Below, piece by piece: positions 35,373 through 41,734 of a stretch of 64,000 nucleotides of DNA (positions within the stretch are counted from its first letter, which is position 1; each line of letters begins with the position of its first letter). The stretch spans positions 24,943 to 88,942 of the forward strand of contig NZ_LMKM01000035.1 of NCBI RefSeq assembly GCF_001421515.1, read 5' to 3'. The translations under genes were made by a program, and so were the position numbers. This DNA is from Pedobacter sp. Leaf216. Its GTDB lineage: Bacteria > Bacteroidota > Bacteroidia > Sphingobacteriales > Sphingobacteriaceae. Under the pieces are notes generated by a model. The model made no database searches. It was not told where the DNA came from and saw nothing but the letters and a program-made list of their open reading frames with translations.

Positions 35373-35834
35373 CTATTCATTTGCCAATAAATATATTTCA
35401 TCAAGCACTTTTTTAGAAAATCTAAAATTTGTTTGTTGTATTTTTTGAAAAATAGGTTTAACTGAAGTGATAAGTCCGTAATTTTTTGCTTTCAGAATGA
35501 TGCCTAAGGTGCCTGTATAAACAAGATTAAACCGCTCAGCTGCTTTTCTACCTTTGTTATCATCTAAAATAAGTAGTGTGTTTTCTGATTCCATAGCTAA
35601 TGCAATAGCACTTGCTTCACCAGCATCAATATCGAGAGAATTTTGAAATGAAATGTTCTTTGGCGTTCTGATCTCAATCCACTCAGGTAAGGGAGACCCA
35701 AATTCAGAAGCAATGGTTGTTGTAGTAATAATTTTTGAGAAAAGTAATTTTAAAAGGCCGAGTTCTCCAACTTTTTCCAGAAGAATGAAGCAACTGGTAT
35801 CAGCAATTACTAGCTCATATTTTTTCTGCATCAC
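35373..35834 (-). CDS. PIN-like toxin (DUF3368 family)
   Basis: Putative ribonuclease toxin of 153 residues. Acidic PIN residues are visible: Asp12 (IADTSC), Glu44 (IASEFG), Asp70/Glu73 (DIDAGEASAIALA) and Asp91-Asp92 (LILDDNKGRKAAE), matching the DUF3368 pattern. Its start overlaps the end of the UPF0175 antitoxin gene by 20 bp, the typical order antitoxin then toxin. It lies about 50 bp upstream of rnpB on the same strand. The length is normal and no truncation is seen. Confidence 0.88.
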   Translation of the reverse strand: MMQKKYELVIADTSCFILLEKVGELGLLKLLFSKIITTTTIASEFGSPLPEWIEIRTPKNISFQNSLDIDAGEASAIALAMESENTLLILDDNKGRKAAERFNLVYTGTLGIILKAKNYGLITSVKPIFQKIQQTNFRFSKKVLDEIYLLANE

Positions 35835-36042
35835 TTAACATTTCTGAAACGGGATAGTTAAGTATTGAAACACCATAATTAGAAAGCAAATCAGAAAAAG
35901 TACGTTTAGATAGGCCCACCATAGATGCTGCTTGACCTAAAGATAATTTTCCAGATTCATATAACTTTGCTGCGATAAATCGCACGGTATCATGCTCATG
36001 TTCGCCTAAGCTATCTGGAACTTGTAGGGTTATCGTTGTCAT
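35815..36042 (-). CDS. UPF0175 family antitoxin
   Basis: A 75-residue antitoxin partner of the DUF3368 toxin. It contains a short helix-turn-helix (LSLGQAASMVGLSKRTFSDLLSNYG, residues about 33-57) preceded by the HDTVRFIAAKLYESGKLS segment typical of UPF0175. It should bind both the toxin and its own promoter. The gene ends inside the toxin gene (20 bp overlap), implying coupled translation. The upstream gap to cytochrome c is only 23 bp of AT-rich sequence. Confidence 0.88.
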   Translation of the reverse strand: MTTITLQVPDSLGEHEHDTVRFIAAKLYESGKLSLGQAASMVGLSKRTFSDLLSNYGVSILNYPVSEMLSDAEKI

Positions 36043-36065: not shown

Positions 36066-36488
36066 TTATTTACAATTCTGCAAATCTTGTGATACCTTTG
36101 AATAAGGGACAAAACCCTGTTTATTTCCAAATGAATTGGTTATGAATACCATAACCTGTGCCACATCAATATCGGCAAGTTCGGGGAAAGCCGGCATTTT
36201 TTCCTTGTATTCTTTACCATGAATAATCAATGATTCGTTTGCACCATTTTTAATGAAACAGGCCAATCGGGTTTTATTTGCCTTTAAAAATACCGAATCA
36301 GTGAGTGGGGGCGCAAGCTGGCCTAATCCTTCTCCATTTTCACCATGGCAGTTCTGACATTTGGCTTTATAAATATCTTTACCATTAGACATATAATTCT
36401 GAAGATCAATAGTTTCCTGGTTTTGGCAAGAAACAATAATGGCGATAAGTGAAAGTAAAAATAAAGCGTTGATGATGTACTTGCGCAT
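36066..36488 (-). CDS. Class I cytochrome c lipoprotein
   Basis: Periplasmic mono-haem electron carrier, 140 residues. A lipobox-like IIAIIVSC places lipidated Cys21 at the membrane. The haem site is Cys44-x-x-Cys47-His48 in KCQNCHGENGEG, with Met98 in EKMPAF as the sixth ligand. The domain is the small cytochrome c type that often serves oxidases or copper enzymes. It is the last gene of the copper/haem locus, 180 bp after the SCO gene. That gap has no clear promoter, so co-transcription is uncertain. Confidence 0.92.
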   Translation of the reverse strand: MRKYIINALFLLSLIAIIVSCQNQETIDLQNYMSNGKDIYKAKCQNCHGENGEGLGQLAPPLTDSVFLKANKTRLACFIKNGANESLIIHGKEYKEKMPAFPELADIDVAQVMVFITNSFGNKQGFVPYSKVSQDLQNCK

Positions 36489-36668
36489 AATGTTTTTTTA
36501 TAATTAACCACCGATAAAGAAAGATAAACACAGATTTTGTTGCTTATCTGTGTTCATCCTATATAGCTGTGGTAAAAAGGAAATAGCTTAATTTGTCGTG
36601 AAGACACTTTTTTGCTTAAATAACAATTTTTTATTCCGTATAAATCCGTGTTTTCGTGGCTAATAATT

Positions 36669-37319
36669 TTACTTTTTATATTCAGCCAATAAAACAGGAA
36701 TATCCTTTTTTAATTGTTCTACCTGTTCTTCTTTCGTGCCGTCGTAAGCACCACGGATACGTCTGTCTTTGTCGATCAAAACTAGATAACCCTGGTGGAT
36801 GTAACCATCTTTAGCAGTACTATCTTCGCCCACAGCCACTAAATAATTTTTCTCAGCCAAAGTATATACACTGTCCTTACTTCCATAAAGAAATTGCCAT
36901 TTTGGTCCATCTACACCTAGTTTTTGAGCATATTTTTTTAAAACGTGAGGTTTGTCGTATTTAAAATCTATCGTATGTGAAACAAACATTACATCTGGAT
37001 TTGCTTTAAATTCATTATAAACCGTCATTAAATTGCGGTGCATAGTAGGGCAGATGGTTGTGCAGGAAGTAAAGAAAAAATCTGCAACATATACTTTACC
37101 ATCGGTAGCTTTATTGGTGGTGATTATACTGTCTTGATTCAAGAACGACCAATCTGGAATGGTTTGATAAACCGTATCAACTTTTTCAACACCAGCTGCA
37201 TCTTTGACCGTTTCTGCATGACGCTCACCATAAAAAGGGAGTTTTTTTTCTTGTTTACAAGCCGTAAATATGGAAATGGCTGATAGGGAGACAGCCAGGT
37301 AAGCAGTAATTTTATTCAT
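36669..37319 (-). CDS. SCO1/SenC family copper chaperone
   Basis: Thioredoxin-fold lipoprotein (lipid Cys21) of 216 residues that delivers copper to the Cu(A) centre of cytochrome oxidase or a similar enzyme. The Cu-binding pair is Cys86 and Cys90 in FTSCTTICPTMH, and the third ligand His175 is in DGYIHQGYLVLID. The rest matches SCO (VADFFFTSCTTICP, FVSHTIDFKYDKP). It lies on the same strand as the MbnP-type genes and next to cytochrome c, supporting a copper delivery role in the periplasm. Confidence 0.95.
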   Translation of the reverse strand: MNKITAYLAVSLSAISIFTACKQEKKLPFYGERHAETVKDAAGVEKVDTVYQTIPDWSFLNQDSIITTNKATDGKVYVADFFFTSCTTICPTMHRNLMTVYNEFKANPDVMFVSHTIDFKYDKPHVLKKYAQKLGVDGPKWQFLYGSKDSVYTLAEKNYLVAVGEDSTAKDGYIHQGYLVLIDKDRRIRGAYDGTKEEQVEQLKKDIPVLLAEYKK

Positions 37320-37367
37320 GATTTTATTTTAAAATGTAAATATACAACGTATTTTGTTTGAGGTATC

Positions 37368-37450
37368 TTCGTGATGAATTTATTTCAGCATCCATCCAGC
37401 ATTAAATAACCTGAAATAAATCCGATAGCTATCGGATCAGGGTGACGAAG
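37368..37450. repeat. Two dispersed hairpin repeats
   Basis: 37368-37393 holds ATGAATTTATTTCAGCATC, and 37408-37445 holds CCTGAAATAAATCCGATAG followed by the palindrome GATAGCTATC and CAGGGTGACG. Both belong to the families seen at 2166, 7821 and 41140. They separate the YHS and SCO genes. Confidence 0.55.
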
Positions 37451-37465
37451 ATAAGCTCCGACTAA

Positions 37466-37726
37466 TTATTTTTTTACATACTTTGCCGGCTCTGCCACAA
37501 ACTTTTGCTTACAGCTTTCTGAACAGAAACTATAGGTAACTCGATTATAAACCGTTGTTTTTGATGCATTGGCTTTTAATTTCATTTTGCAAACCGGATC
37601 TACCACATTCTTTTTTACTGAATCGGTTAAATTTGTTTTTGAAAAATCCTTTACGGAGTTTGCATTTGATTTTACCGCTATTATTGTTAATCCAATTAGG
37701 ATTATTGCTAAGATTGATTTTTTCAT
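37466..37726 (-). CDS. Exported YHS-domain metal-binding protein
   Basis: An 86-residue periplasmic protein. The start at 37726 (MKKSILAIILIGL) gives a clean signal peptide; ATGs further upstream add an unlikely tail. The mature part is one YHS/TRASH domain: DPVCKMKLKANASKTT and YSFCSESCKQKFVAEPAKY, with three Cys that can bind a soft metal such as Cu. Proteins of this type are frequent in Cu and Hg loci. It lies between the SCO gene and a lipoprotein gene of the same strand. Confidence 0.9.
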   Translation of the reverse strand: MKKSILAIILIGLTIIAVKSNANSVKDFSKTNLTDSVKKNVVDPVCKMKLKANASKTTVYNRVTYSFCSESCKQKFVAEPAKYVKK

Positions 37727-37841
37727 TTTTGAATTCATTTTAAGTTTAAAGCTGGTAGTTAGAAGACTAAAGTTTAGGCCGTTTAACCACCAATTTCCTA
37801 TCATTTGACTCCAGTCTTCTAACACCCGAATTGTTGACCAT

Positions 37842-38273
37842 TTATTTTACCTGATACATCCTTATTAACGAATCCGATTCTCTGGTGACTTTAATGTAAC
37901 CATCTTCCACAGCCCTGATTTTAATCATTTCAGATTTATAATAATCAAGATCTTCCTGCGCTGTTTTCCCTTTAAAATCATCTTTAAAAAAATGCATCCA
38001 ATCCATCATTTTTTCATCAGCAGCATTTAGTTTAATTATTAAGGTATTAATCTCTTGCTTACGCATGGCTGAATCCGGAGTGTTTTTAATTTTGTCAGAA
38101 ACCATTAAGGCGTCCAATTTCATTTTGTTTTTGATTACTTTTTCACCATCAACCATTAACTTATCATGGATATTTAATACTTCCTGCCGTACGGCTTTTG
38201 AATCGGGTTCAGTTTTGCACGAAATCACAAAAACGGTTATCAGGCATAACATTGCAACATTTAATCTGTTCAT
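37842..38273 (-). CDS. Helical lipoprotein of unknown function
   Basis: A 143-residue lipoprotein with lipobox VFVISC (Cys19). I do not recognise a named domain. The mature part is predominantly helical and charged with many Met (DKLMVDGEKVIKNKMKLDALMV, DEKMMDWMHFFKDDFKG), which could bind copper or serve as a coiled coil. It begins 10 bp after the stop of the Cys-rich outer-membrane gene, so the two are co-transcribed. The start at 38273 is chosen because it puts the lipobox at a normal distance. Confidence 0.75.
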   Translation of the reverse strand: MNRLNVAMLCLITVFVISCKTEPDSKAVRQEVLNIHDKLMVDGEKVIKNKMKLDALMVSDKIKNTPDSAMRKQEINTLIIKLNAADEKMMDWMHFFKDDFKGKTAQEDLDYYKSEMIKIRAVEDGYIKVTRESDSLIRMYQVK

Positions 38274-38283
38274 TTTCCTAGAT

Positions 38284-39261
38284 TTAAAAATTATAGGTAA
38301 CTCCAACATAAGCTTTTCCAGCACTCATCGGGTGATCGGTTTCTGCTTCCCAAATGTTTTTTTGTACCCCAACATTTAAGGCCACATTTTTATAAAAAAC
38401 ATCAACACCAACGCCACCCATCAGGTTATTCATCACATGTTCTCCTGTTTTTTGGCCTTTATATTTTTCTCCGCCAGAATATTCATAAAAAAACTGTGCC
38501 GATGGCATAATTTTTACATCCTTACCAATACTTTGCGTATAAAAAATATTAAGGAAACTGGTTGTACTATTGGCAATGCCCTCATCTCTGCTATTGGTTC
38601 CATTAACTTTATAAGAGGTATTTAAACTTGCTCCAAATTTACCCAAACCAACCATGTAATTGAGATAAACAAAACCATCTGTACTTCCTGTTCCTGCCTG
38701 CATTAATGATGAATAACGGATACCTGCTGTATTTTTAAAATCATTTTTACCAGTAGGCAATTTTATTCCGGCCCCCGCAATTAGCTGTTGCTTAAAATTA
38801 TCTTCCAGTTTCTGAACAAGGTGGTAGCCTGCATATAAATTGATATCACCAATAGCCGAAATTGAAGAGGTGTAGCCATTGTATCGCTCACTGTTGGAAA
38901 CATAAGGTAAAATGGCATTGATTTCCAGTTTGCTATTGATGAAGTATTTTCCCCTGACCTCCAAGGATCTGTAAAGTTCATAATCGGTAGGGTTGCCGGC
39001 ATGATTGGTAATTGGAGAATCCTGACTTCTGGCTGGAATAAAGAAACTTCCCCCATTTGGAAATAGTGAGTGTGATTGACCTTCGTATCCGTTAAAAGAG
39101 CGGTAACGGTACAATAAGCTGATGCTGTTGCGGTTGTAGTAGGGGGTAATACCCATAAAACAGCCACAGATATCGCAGGCAAAAACCTGACTGCTCATGA
39201 GTAGGAAAACTAATACCAAGAGTTTACGACTCGCTGTATAGTGTGTTTTTGATAAATTCAT
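38284..39261 (-). CDS. Outer-membrane barrel-like protein with CxxCxC N terminus
   Basis: A 325-residue envelope protein. The signal peptide (about 1-28) is followed directly by Cys29-Asp-Ile-Cys32-Gly-Cys34, giving a mature N terminus with three Cys, a likely metal site. The remainder is beta-rich with alternating aromatic residues (SISLLYRYRSFNGYEG, DINLYAGYHLV, LNVGVQKNIWEAE) and ends GVTYNF, like an outer-membrane barrel. It starts inside the end of the MbnH-like gene (38 bp overlap), so the genes are tightly linked. Probable role: an outer-membrane copper-related channel or sensor, by context only. Confidence 0.78.
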   Translation of the reverse strand: MNLSKTHYTASRKLLVLVFLLMSSQVFACDICGCFMGITPYYNRNSISLLYRYRSFNGYEGQSHSLFPNGGSFFIPARSQDSPITNHAGNPTDYELYRSLEVRGKYFINSKLEINAILPYVSNSERYNGYTSSISAIGDINLYAGYHLVQKLEDNFKQQLIAGAGIKLPTGKNDFKNTAGIRYSSLMQAGTGSTDGFVYLNYMVGLGKFGASLNTSYKVNGTNSRDEGIANSTTSFLNIFYTQSIGKDVKIMPSAQFFYEYSGGEKYKGQKTGEHVMNNLMGGVGVDVFYKNVALNVGVQKNIWEAETDHPMSAGKAYVGVTYNF

Positions 39262-40261
39262 TGTCTGTTAATGTTTTTAAAAAAGCTTTAATCTGTTCTT
39301 TTTCAGTTGTATTTAAAGGGATACCATTTTTAAGTTGGGCATCGAGATTAGTTGATGCTTTTACGCCCGAATTGTAATGTTCCAGAACTTCATCCAGGCT
39401 GTAAAATCGGCCATCGTGCATATATGGGCTGGTATATTCGATGTTGCGTAACGTAGGTACGCGGAACTTTCCAAAATCTGATGCAACTCCGGTAATATGC
39501 GAACGTCCTTCGTCTGCACTTATCAAATCCAACCCGTTACTCCGGTAAGAAAAATCTGTAAAAAATGGTTCTGCGTGGCAGGAAGTACATTTTTCTTTAA
39601 ACAGGTTGTAGCCTGCCAGTTCTGTAGATGTAAAAGAAATGCCGCCTTCTTTACGCATTACCTTATCATATTTAGAATTTCCTGAAACCAACACTGCTGC
39701 AAATTGTGTAATCGATTTTAAAATGAGCTGTGAGTTGATTTCCGTTGAACCAAAAGCTTGTTTAAATAAATCCGGATAAGGTGCCGTATTTTTAAGAAAT
39801 GCTACAATGGTTTGTATATCTGTACCCATTTCGCAAGCGTCAGTAATGGCATTTAATGGTGAAGTTTCGATGTTTTTTACGCCACCATCCCAAAAGAACG
39901 CCTTTTGCCAGGCCAAATTAACTAGTGGGGGCGTGTTGCGCTTACCCTGGCAGTTATTTACCCCATGGCTTACCTTATGATCAAGCTGTGTAAAGCCGGC
40001 AAACTGTTGGTGGCAGCTTCCGCACGAAACACTTTTATCGGCCGATAGCCTTGCTTCATAAAACAGCTTTTTACCAAGCGCAAAACCTGCATTGGTTAAC
40101 TTATTGTCTTCGAAATTATATGCAGGAGCAGGAAAGTTAGCCGGTATAGAAAAGGTGATTTTCTTTTCTTCCTGAGCAACCTCATCTTCATTCTTACTAC
40201 AGGCATACATCAACGCAATGCTTAAAAAAAGCATTGCGAAGACAGTTATTTTCCTTAACAT
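39224..40261 (-). CDS. Di-haem cytochrome c peroxidase/MauG/MbnH-like lipoprotein
   Basis: A 345-residue di-haem enzyme with lipid Cys21 (ALMYAC). The two haem sites are Cys80-x-x-Cys83-His84 (CGSCH) and Cys225-x-x-Cys228-His229 (CTSCH). The internal GKRNTPPLVNLAW and the C-terminal FGKFRVPTLRNIEYTSPYMHDGRF follow the cytochrome c peroxidase/MauG family. Its ATG overlaps the MbnP stop by one base, the same gene pair as MbnH-MbnP in methanotrophs, where MbnH oxidises a Trp of MbnP to make a copper site. By context this is more likely a protein-modifying MbnH than a peroxidase; activity is inferred. Confidence 0.9.
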   Translation of the reverse strand: MLRKITVFAMLFLSIALMYACSKNEDEVAQEEKKITFSIPANFPAPAYNFEDNKLTNAGFALGKKLFYEARLSADKSVSCGSCHQQFAGFTQLDHKVSHGVNNCQGKRNTPPLVNLAWQKAFFWDGGVKNIETSPLNAITDACEMGTDIQTIVAFLKNTAPYPDLFKQAFGSTEINSQLILKSITQFAAVLVSGNSKYDKVMRKEGGISFTSTELAGYNLFKEKCTSCHAEPFFTDFSYRSNGLDLISADEGRSHITGVASDFGKFRVPTLRNIEYTSPYMHDGRFYSLDEVLEHYNSGVKASTNLDAQLKNGIPLNTTEKEQIKAFLKTLTDNEFIKNTLYSES

Positions 40262-41031
40262 TAGTTATGGATATGATCTAAACGGAATAAACCATTTGCA
40301 TAATTATTGGCTACGATAACCGAATTTGTTCCACCCATTGTAAAATTCAAAGTAGCGAAACTCACATCGGTTTTACCGGTAAATAATGCAGCTGCATTTA
40401 CAATAAAGTGCATATTCGGTTTGCCATCTGCTCTAACACGAAGTGGATTTGCTGAATTAATTTCTGTAGCAAACGTTCTGATCGTATTATTTGGATCGGT
40501 TACGCCGCCGATGTGAAACGTTAGCAAATTTTTATCGGCGGTAGATTGCGGCGAAGTTCCTTCCAGTTTAACAAAGATATAGCCGCTGTTCCATGTCCAG
40601 AACATGCCGTTGATGGGATCTAAAGCACCGGTTTGTGCACCAGCAAAATTACGTGCGTAATCTACACCAATTGTATATTCTATTTTTGTGTAATCGCCTG
40701 TCGGCACATCTTTAAAGGTGATATTGGTCGATTCTGATTTTGAAGCATCAATCAAGAAATAACTTTCCGGAATAAGGTAGGTTGTTCCATCTGCTTTGCT
40801 TAATTTAATGTTGCTTACATAATATTTAAATACGTTAATCTTAAAATCTTCGCCTTTTGCATTTTTGTAAGATGTTGTGTTTAAAACCAGCGGACTTCCG
40901 TTTACCTGATTTTCAAACTCGATAGAGAAAGTGGATTTAGTATTGGCGGTTACTTCTTCTGCATCTTTTTTGCAAGAAGATAAGAGTATAACAGGGCATA
41001 ACAAGGCCAAAAAGTATGTTGAAATTTTCAT
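40261..41031 (-). CDS. MbnP-like copper-binding lipoprotein
   Basis: A 256-residue surface or periplasmic lipoprotein (lipobox VILLSSC, Cys20). The beta-sandwich MbnP domain is indicated by FSIEFENQVNGSPLVL, FKINVFKYYVSNIKL and GMFWTWNSGYIFVKLEG. The last carries Trp145 and Trp147, candidates for the Trp converted to kynurenine by MbnH. His173 (TFHIGG), His208 and the C-terminal His253/His255 could bind copper. One-base overlap with the di-haem gene indicates coupling. The family assignment is firm; copper binding here is inferred. Confidence 0.9.
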   Translation of the reverse strand: MKISTYFLALLCPVILLSSCKKDAEEVTANTKSTFSIEFENQVNGSPLVLNTTSYKNAKGEDFKINVFKYYVSNIKLSKADGTTYLIPESYFLIDASKSESTNITFKDVPTGDYTKIEYTIGVDYARNFAGAQTGALDPINGMFWTWNSGYIFVKLEGTSPQSTADKNLLTFHIGGVTDPNNTIRTFATEINSANPLRVRADGKPNMHFIVNAAALFTGKTDVSFATLNFTMGGTNSVIVANNYANGLFRLDHIHN

Positions 41032-41139
41032 TTTAAGTAAATTGAATAAGTAAAAAATGGATTAGCCAGTCGCTATGATTCGTGAGGGCACAAATCAAGG
41101 CGAATGAACATTAAAATATTTAAAGAAATTCTAATACAG

Positions 41140-41172
41140 TCGTCATGCTGAATTTATTTCAGCATCTAATTA
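41140..41172. repeat. Dispersed hairpin repeat copy
   Basis: GTCGTCATGCTGAATTTATT followed by TCAGCATC. The arms ATGCTGAA and TTCAGCAT pair. This is the CTGAA-x-TTCAG hairpin family in the gap before the MbnP gene, and may also act as a weak terminator for the small gene upstream. Confidence 0.5.
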
Positions 41173-41242
41173 ATAGTATACATGAATACCTCCTGATGAC
41201 CAATTATTTGGACAAGGTGATAACCACAAAAGAAAGACTGCC

Positions 41243-41614
41243 CTAAACCGTTTTCGGTGGATGAAAAATTGAGATTGAAAGATCTTTAACAGGTTTTTCG
41301 ATATAAAGATTTTCAGAAGTGATAATAAAATAAGAAAGATGGTGATTTATGGCTAAAGTTTGAAATTGAGGCTCAGCTTCTGCAACTCTTTTCAGGTTTT
41401 CTTGAGCCTGCTTATTTTTACCATCAAGATCTTTTAATTTTTTTGCTAAAAAACACTGGCCATCACAATGTAGCTCCGGATGTTCTTTATTGATACAGAA
41501 TACACTTGTAATGTATTCTTTATTCATCTTATAACCAGAATAGATAACCAATTGCATGAAACCGTTGCTCACGGTACACGTAATGATTAGATATATTAAG
41601 ATTTTTTTGAACAT
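41243..41614 (-). CDS. Small membrane-anchored Cys/His protein
   Basis: A 123-residue protein with an N-terminal signal or anchor (MFKKILIYLIITCTVS), preferred start at 41614. The motif Cys40-x4-His45-x3-His49-Cys50-x3-Cys54 (in FCINKEHPELHCDGQC) is a likely metal site. It is followed by a Lys-rich helix FLAKKLKDLDGKNKQ and a hydrophobic strand-rich tail. I know this pattern as a frequent neighbour of copper genes in Bacteroidota but cannot name a characterised member. It is the first gene of the copper/haem strand block, 210 bp before MbnP. Confidence 0.75.
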   Translation of the reverse strand: MFKKILIYLIITCTVSNGFMQLVIYSGYKMNKEYITSVFCINKEHPELHCDGQCFLAKKLKDLDGKNKQAQENLKRVAEAEPQFQTLAINHHLSYFIITSENLYIEKPVKDLSISIFHPPKTV

Positions 41615-41734
41615 GGTATTGCGATGCAAAAGTATTAAAGAAATTGGTACTGTCAAATGCAAAAAGATAATTCTTACATTTAATATTTGTTGTTCTAATT
41701 CCTAAATTAATAATAACCCAAATAAAATTGCTCT

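Follow-up and report, generated by a model that had tools for sequence, protein, structure and literature searches.

The means by which Gram-negative bacteria acquire copper are poorly understood, and few studies have dealt with copper in the Bacteroidota. Among the envelope systems described so far is the pair formed by MbnP and its di-haem partner MbnH in the methanotroph Methylosinus trichosporium OB3b, which is said to have been characterized by Manesis et al. in 2021. In the MbnP structure, copper is reportedly held by a histidine, a methionine, and solvent, near a kynurenine derived from the first tryptophan of the site. This study concerns a run of eight genes, including an MbnP gene and an MbnH-like gene, on the minus strand of the soil bacterium Pedobacter sp. 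Leaf216 (contig NZ_LMKM01000035.1). The run extends from position 41614 down to 36066 of the 64,000-nucleotide stretch of DNA that was analysed, here termed the window. It is read as a copper-starvation operon, with a probability of about 0.68; its products would capture copper at the outer membrane and hand it to the copper chaperone SCO for a haem-copper oxidase, under the control of a small leader peptide. Comparative evidence backs this reading well without proving it, and within it we infer copper as the metal, the oxidation of Trp145 of MbnP, and the oxidase as client.

A second group of described systems involves small exported proteins that head copper operons. CruR, encoded by the first gene of Bordetella pertussis cruR-crtA-crpH, carries CXXC and RAPP motifs at conserved spacing and acts as a copper-sensing nascent chain that shuts off the TonB receptor operon (PMC9426467). 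The TonB receptor CrtA of Bordetella brings in copper for haem-copper oxidases, which are supported by the PepSY protein CrpH (PMC12914433, PMC13038864). CutF of Rhodobacter capsulatus is a leader with a CxxxC motif, and a survey of such proteins found many CutF-like members in Bacteroidota (PMC9973294). Methanobactin-free MbnP-MbnH pairs have also been published, as have MbnPH-like genes within CruR operons (PMC9426467). The coupling of a barrel protein to histidines of MbnP, the FHPP/CxGxC leader that heads these operons, and the exchange with a TonB receptor at the SCO site appear to be new, and no open-access report of them was found.

The window pair resembles that of Methylosinus (7l6g, 6e1c) in its overlapping genes, the MbnP fold, an M-x-W-x-W motif with a histidine, and a di-haem partner with two CxxCH motifs. 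It differs in having no MbnB gene, in being composed of lipoproteins, in an additional His208 and C-terminal HxH of MbnP, in a dedicated cysteine-bearing barrel, and in scores below those of equivalogs. The CorA-CorB and MopE-SACCP systems of other methanotrophs also join a surface or envelope protein with a kynurenine copper site, as predicted for the window, to an adjacent gene for a di-haem peroxidase-like protein (PMC3912023), although the CorA/MopE site consists of two histidines and kynurenine and the sequences are not markedly similar to MbnP (PMC3621798). The small protein at the head of the run shares with CruR and CutF its position as first gene, an N-terminal export signal, a cysteine motif, a Pro-Pro near the C-terminus, constrained spacing, a following gap, and an operon of copper genes. 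It departs from CruR in lacking detectable DUF2946 homology, in having CxGxC and FHPP rather than CXXC and RAPP, and in a spacing of 64-70 rather than 45 residues; unlike the Bordetella CrtA-CrpH operon, that of the window carries no TonB receptor.

Organization and Distribution of the Locus

The elements of the locus, all on the minus strand, are as follows, in the order of reading.

41627..41657, minus: match to the promoter type of Bacteroidota, TTTG-N19-TACTTTTG, a short way before the leader gene (pattern match)
41243..41614, minus: small exported protein of 123 amino acids, putative CutF/CruR-like copper-sensing leader (alignment, spacing, position)
41032..41242, minus: gap of 211 nucleotides (nt) between leader and mbnP, strongly folding RNA, candidate attenuation site (RNA fold)
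40261..41031, minus: MbnP-family lipoprotein, predicted to bind copper (PF20243, AlphaFold2 model, Foldseek, alignment)
39224..40261, minus: MbnH/MauG-like di-haem c lipoprotein (PF03150, E=1.7e-49)
38284..39261, minus: outer-membrane beta-barrel with a COG4313/FapF-like fold and CDICGC right after the signal peptide (AlphaFold2 model, Foldseek)
37842..38273, minus: helical lipoprotein, rich in methionine, in which HD-x-[LV]-M and A-M-M/N-x-W-M motifs are conserved (no Pfam family)
37466..37738, minus: YHS-domain protein, an optional member (PF04945, E=4e-13)
36669..37319, minus: SCO copper chaperone with intact CTTIC (PF02630, E=2e-21)
36066..36488, minus: mono-haem cytochrome c lipoprotein with a single CQNCH (PF13442, E=8e-10; PF00034, E=3e-9)

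An earlier note on this DNA, made by reading the letters alone, had named these eight genes on one strand and a one-base overlap of the MbnP and di-haem genes. The coordinates bear out both statements, the overlap lying in the sequence TAATG. Pfam profiles assign the MbnP, CCP_MauG, SCO1-SenC, YHS, and cytochrome c proteins; the same search gave no family for the barrel, the Met-rich lipoprotein, or the small protein.

Of the 296 Bacteroidota genomes sampled, 78 contain a member of the MbnP family PF20243. A core of leader, MbnP, MbnH, and barrel is repeated across the phylum, and the whole run, with the lipoprotein, an optional YHS gene, SCO, and cytochrome c behind the barrel, is almost invariant in Pedobacter. 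Because both the core and the whole run recur, the arrangement is not due to chance. The MbnP of the nearest named species is 93% identical to that of the window. As members of a culturable and non-pathogenic genus, Pedobacter strains with this locus offer a setting in which kynurenine copper proteins could be tested outside the methanotrophs.

MbnP and Its Di-haem Partner

The protein encoded at 40261-41031 is a genuine MbnP. It matched PF20243 with E=4.9e-58 and 196.6 bits, against a gathering score of 27, which by sequence makes it a member of that family; it is not claimed as an equivalog. When its AlphaFold2 model, with a predicted local distance difference test score (pLDDT) of 87.5, was compared with known structures by Foldseek, the top six places fell to the chains of 7l6g, the MbnP of Methylosinus (E 4e-10 to 1e-8; probability 1.0 for the best), and the first match after them stood at E=0.04. 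Searches of PDB sequences with the single sequence and with a profile returned no match, so that 7l6g surfaced by fold comparison only.

The core-site residues are Met143, Trp145 (the kynurenine candidate), Trp147, and His173, and the Methylosinus copper site presumably maps to His173, Met143, and Trp145. Among 159 Bacteroidota MbnPs, W145 is present in 157, H173 in 158, and W147 in 151, with Met143 conserved together with Trp145 and His173. In alignment, the MbnPs of Paracoccus, Methylocystis, and Ideonella share the M-x-W-x-W motif and the histidine. The positions that the earlier note gave for the two tryptophans were correct. In Paracoccus, the MbnP-MbnH genes are followed by genes for a copper-uptake protein, PCuAC, and two SCO proteins.

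The di-haem protein has its two CxxCH motifs at residues 80 and 225, an inter-haem Trp124, and a distal Tyr296, and its PDB matches include MbnH 6e1c (E=6e-36). The distal tyrosine was considered as a marker of MbnH and rejected, since tyrosine occupies that position in other peroxidases too. The locus had been proposed to work in the absence of methanobactin, and this was supported: the MbnB family (PF05114) gave no match in the genome in a search whose positive controls worked, and MbnC (TIGR04160) gave none in a search that had no positive control. In plasmid records, two genes for di-haem MbnH-like proteins (L189:6795-7964 and L191:5848-7119) are named "methanobactin export MATE transporter MbnM", which is a misannotation. 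Four loci (L163, L165, L170, and L180) carry MbnP, barrel, and leader with no adjoining MbnH; as the tryptophan and histidine are still conserved in them, one would expect an MbnH encoded at a distance or a different oxidant.

The Barrel and the MbnP Histidines

The barrel had been described as barrel-like with a CxxCxC motif. This was confirmed, the motif being CDICGC, and the comparison adds a partnership with MbnP that had been missed. Its AlphaFold2 model (pLDDT 78, predicted template modelling score 0.78) finds its best structural matches in FapF (E=2e-10) and the COG4313 channel 4rl8 (template modelling score 0.73 by target length). It is set apart from these channels by its N-terminal CDxCGC and by its tie to MbnP: of the 296 genomes, 35 encode strong homologues (E<1e-60), and in 33 of these the homologue adjoins MbnP.

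Beyond the core site, the window MbnP has three extra histidines, His208, His253, and His255. Among 115 non-redundant MbnPs, His208 and the C-terminal HxH are present in all 34 that stand beside a barrel with intact C..CGC and in 6 of the other 81; one of these six is located at the end of a contig, and three are members of a divergent clade of His-tailed proteins. Except at L163, barrels whose motif is damaged (CDFCN, CDVCGA) accompany MbnPs without the histidines. A Pagel test on a tree from which the columns in question were left out supported correlated change of the two characters (likelihood ratio 39.2, p about 6e-8), and in sign tests on strongly supported branches every differing pair points one way. 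The barrel is, on this distribution, a dedicated partner of His-tailed MbnP, and its co-evolution with the histidines suggests contact or copper transfer between the two proteins. That the His tail of MbnP works together with CxxCGC of the barrel can be stated as a residue-level prediction. Relatives of the barrel also stand in operons with a leader and SCO where MbnP does not adjoin (L345, L348, and L349, in G139, G077, and G069).

A Putative Copper-Sensing Leader

The small protein with cysteines and histidines that had been seen upstream is present, but it is probably a sensor and not a metal carrier. It contains an N-terminal hydrophobic segment (judged by eye), C-x9-CDGQC, and a C-terminal FHPPKTV. 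In the family alignment C41, C51, G53, C55, and P120-P121 are invariant, the CxGxC is mostly preceded by CxNKxKPxL, and the Pro-Pro mostly lies within [IV]F[HR]PP. The Pro-Pro stands 1-4 residues before the C-terminal end in 48 of 50 non-redundant leaders (3 in the window), and its spacing from CxGxC is 64-70 in 47 of the 50, whereas the intervening stretch is almost unconserved. The published rule for CutF-like proteins is fewer than 150 amino acids, an N-terminal export signal, Pro-Pro within the last 15 residues, and a same-strand downstream gene within 1000 nt (PMC9973294). With 123 amino acids, Pro-Pro 3 from the end, and mbnP on the same strand after 211 nt, the window protein falls within it.

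The leader gene comes first in its run and has the same orientation as the genes that follow. In 41 of 91 loci a promoter match precedes it (0.25 expected), many of these loci being from Pedobacter and so not independent; none was found in 89 leader-MbnP gaps, that of the window included. The promoter match of the window, taken alone, is not significant, as the window holds 5 matches with 6 expected. The RNA of 41010-41260, which spans the gap behind the leader, is predicted to fold with -55 kcal/mol (z = -3.26). A palindrome lies within this gap at 41145-41166 (ATGCTGAA...TTCAGCAT); as the window holds a second occurrence of its pattern, the palindrome may belong to a dispersed repeat.

Because a cysteine motif and Pro-Pro at fixed spacing, the first position in the run, and a promoter that is only upstream are marks of CruR and CutF, a copper-sensing leader of this type is the most likely identity of the small protein. 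The same leader also heads TonB receptor, PepSY, YtkA, barrel-SCO, and DUF2911 operons in Bacteroidota; it represents a candidate family of copper-sensing leaders in this phylum. That it instead functions as a copper chaperone in the periplasm or the membrane, as its membrane segment, its complete reading frame, and a CxGxC able to bind copper would allow, is improbable: the middle region is variable in sequence yet fixed in length, the Pro-Pro sits at the extreme C-terminus, and the first-gene position with a promoter upstream only is a hallmark of the CruR/CutF type. In Ideonella (L191:4348-4713), a DUF2946 gene of the CruR family immediately precedes the genes for MbnP-MbnH and a TonB receptor, a proteobacterial counterpart of the window arrangement.

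SCO and Exchange with a TonB Receptor Module

SCO proteins serve in loading the oxidase with copper. The genome has two, one in the window and one in the oxidase operon (L197:6127-6822; G000:C2, about 146 kb). The latter has lost CxxxC (FYTAAGSQQTIKY), which leaves the window SCO as the only one in the genome with the copper motif. Decay of the oxidase SCO was found in 4 of 4 sampled Pedobacter and in three or four further genera. MbnP is present in 11 of the 14 genomes whose oxidase SCO has decayed and in 6 of the 32 in which it is intact (Fisher 2e-4; 0.045 at genus level).

The region upstream of SCO differs among relatives. A Pedobacter locus (L031) reads leader-MbnP-MbnH-barrel-lipoprotein-SCO-cytochrome c-NtrC. 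The corresponding locus of G310, from the family of Pedobacter, reads leader-TonB receptor-PepSY-lipoprotein-SCO-cytochrome c-NtrC, and that of G122 reads leader-TonB receptor-BNR protein-SCO-cytochrome c-NtrC. The NtrC proteins of G310 and G122 are 80-81% identical to that of Pedobacter, a search for MbnP found none in either genome, and G329 and G342, from the genus of G310, carry the MbnP version. By protein type, the TonB receptor and PepSY protein of G310, placed between leader and lipoprotein-SCO-cytochrome c, can be likened to CrtA-CrpH. Given the role of the latter in Bordetella, the simplest reading of the swap is that MbnP-MbnH-barrel does the same copper job for SCO and the oxidase, which would tie this pair to oxidase copper supply. 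A further step, that MbnP, MbnH, and barrel form a TonB-receptor-independent copper route through the outer membrane, from a His-tailed kynurenine protein into a CxxCGC channel, interchangeable with a TonB receptor (with or without PepSY) under the same leader, is possible though doubtful.

A Proposed Model for Copper Supply and Its Rivals

In the proposed model, the nascent exported leader (41243-41614) would sense copper through its CxGxC, and its terminal FHPP together with the structured gap may gate expression of the downstream genes, by analogy with CutF and CruR. The di-haem enzyme would turn Trp145 of MbnP into kynurenine, as in Methylosinus MbnP, and Met143, Kyn145, and His173, residues present in a matching fold, would form a Cu(I) site. 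Copper might then pass from His208, His253, and His255 to the Cys-rich N-terminus of the barrel, with which these histidines co-evolve. The lipoprotein, SCO, and cytochrome c would finish delivery, SCO loading the oxidase. The proposal that the locus acquires or delivers copper, already made in the earlier note, is supported by the copper-site residues, the leader, the only CxxxC-bearing SCO, and the TonB swap in relatives.

Several observations weigh against this reading. MbnP scored 59.8 bits with the NCBIfam equivalog TIGR04052, below its cut-off of 140, and the di-haem protein scored 200 bits with its best NCBIfam model, TIGR04039 (MbnH), below the cut-off of 363. The two proteins are therefore divergent members or homologues, and the label "MbnH-like" is used for the enzyme. 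The MbnH tree does not firmly place the Bacteroidota enzymes with proteobacterial MbnH. Strongly supported branches alone give 3-4 independent pairs for the link between histidines and barrel. The DUF2946 profile (PF11162) matched none of 29 leader-family members at E up to 10, so the leader would work like CruR/CutF without being a DUF2946 member. The SCO and cytochrome c genes are set apart by gaps of 146-180 nt and may be separate transcripts. Finally, decay of the oxidase SCO is clade-bound, and a strict link between it and MbnP was rejected as a rule, as the decayed genomes G339, G310, and G340 lack MbnP.

The locus might alternatively protect against copper, with the metal bound or oxidized, or peroxide removed, in the envelope by a di-haem peroxidase and an MbnP sponge that are induced at high copper. 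The homology of the di-haem enzyme to cytochrome c peroxidases and the copper-efflux operons headed by certain CutF-like leaders (PMC9973294) would fit such a role, to which we assign a low probability: the locus has no efflux pump, multicopper oxidase, or P-type ATPase, SCO and the exchangeability with TonB/PepSY indicate acquisition, and copper represses the CruR operon of Bordetella with its TonB receptor (PMC9426467). It is very unlikely that the leader and barrel serve iron, nickel, cobalt, or a haem pathway, even though CutF-like leaders with only a histidine motif head nickel/cobalt genes (PMC9973294) and PepSY and TonB modules frequently serve iron, because the leader motif is of the cysteine type, the MbnP copper site is kept, and SCO belongs to the run. 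Superfamily kinship with MauG (TIGR03791, 175 bits), the cytochrome c of the locus, and conservation of W145 even where no MbnH gene adjoins would suit another Trp-derived group in MbnP for electron transfer with cytochrome c, copper being secondary or lost, but Met143 and His173 are conserved with Trp145 as in proteobacterial MbnP and the fold matches 7l6g, which makes this highly improbable.

Remaining Genes of the Run

The lipoprotein, SCO, and cytochrome c genes form a separate module that is found without MbnP too, and in three loci (L296, L297, and L298) the Met-rich lipoprotein gene lies immediately upstream of SCO with a gap of 1-2 nt. The YHS gene is missing in about half of the Pedobacter loci. 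Downstream of cytochrome c in the window, UPF0175 and DUF3368 genes at 35373-36042 form a VapBC-like toxin-antitoxin pair, which sits where many other Pedobacter carry the NtrC-like regulator.

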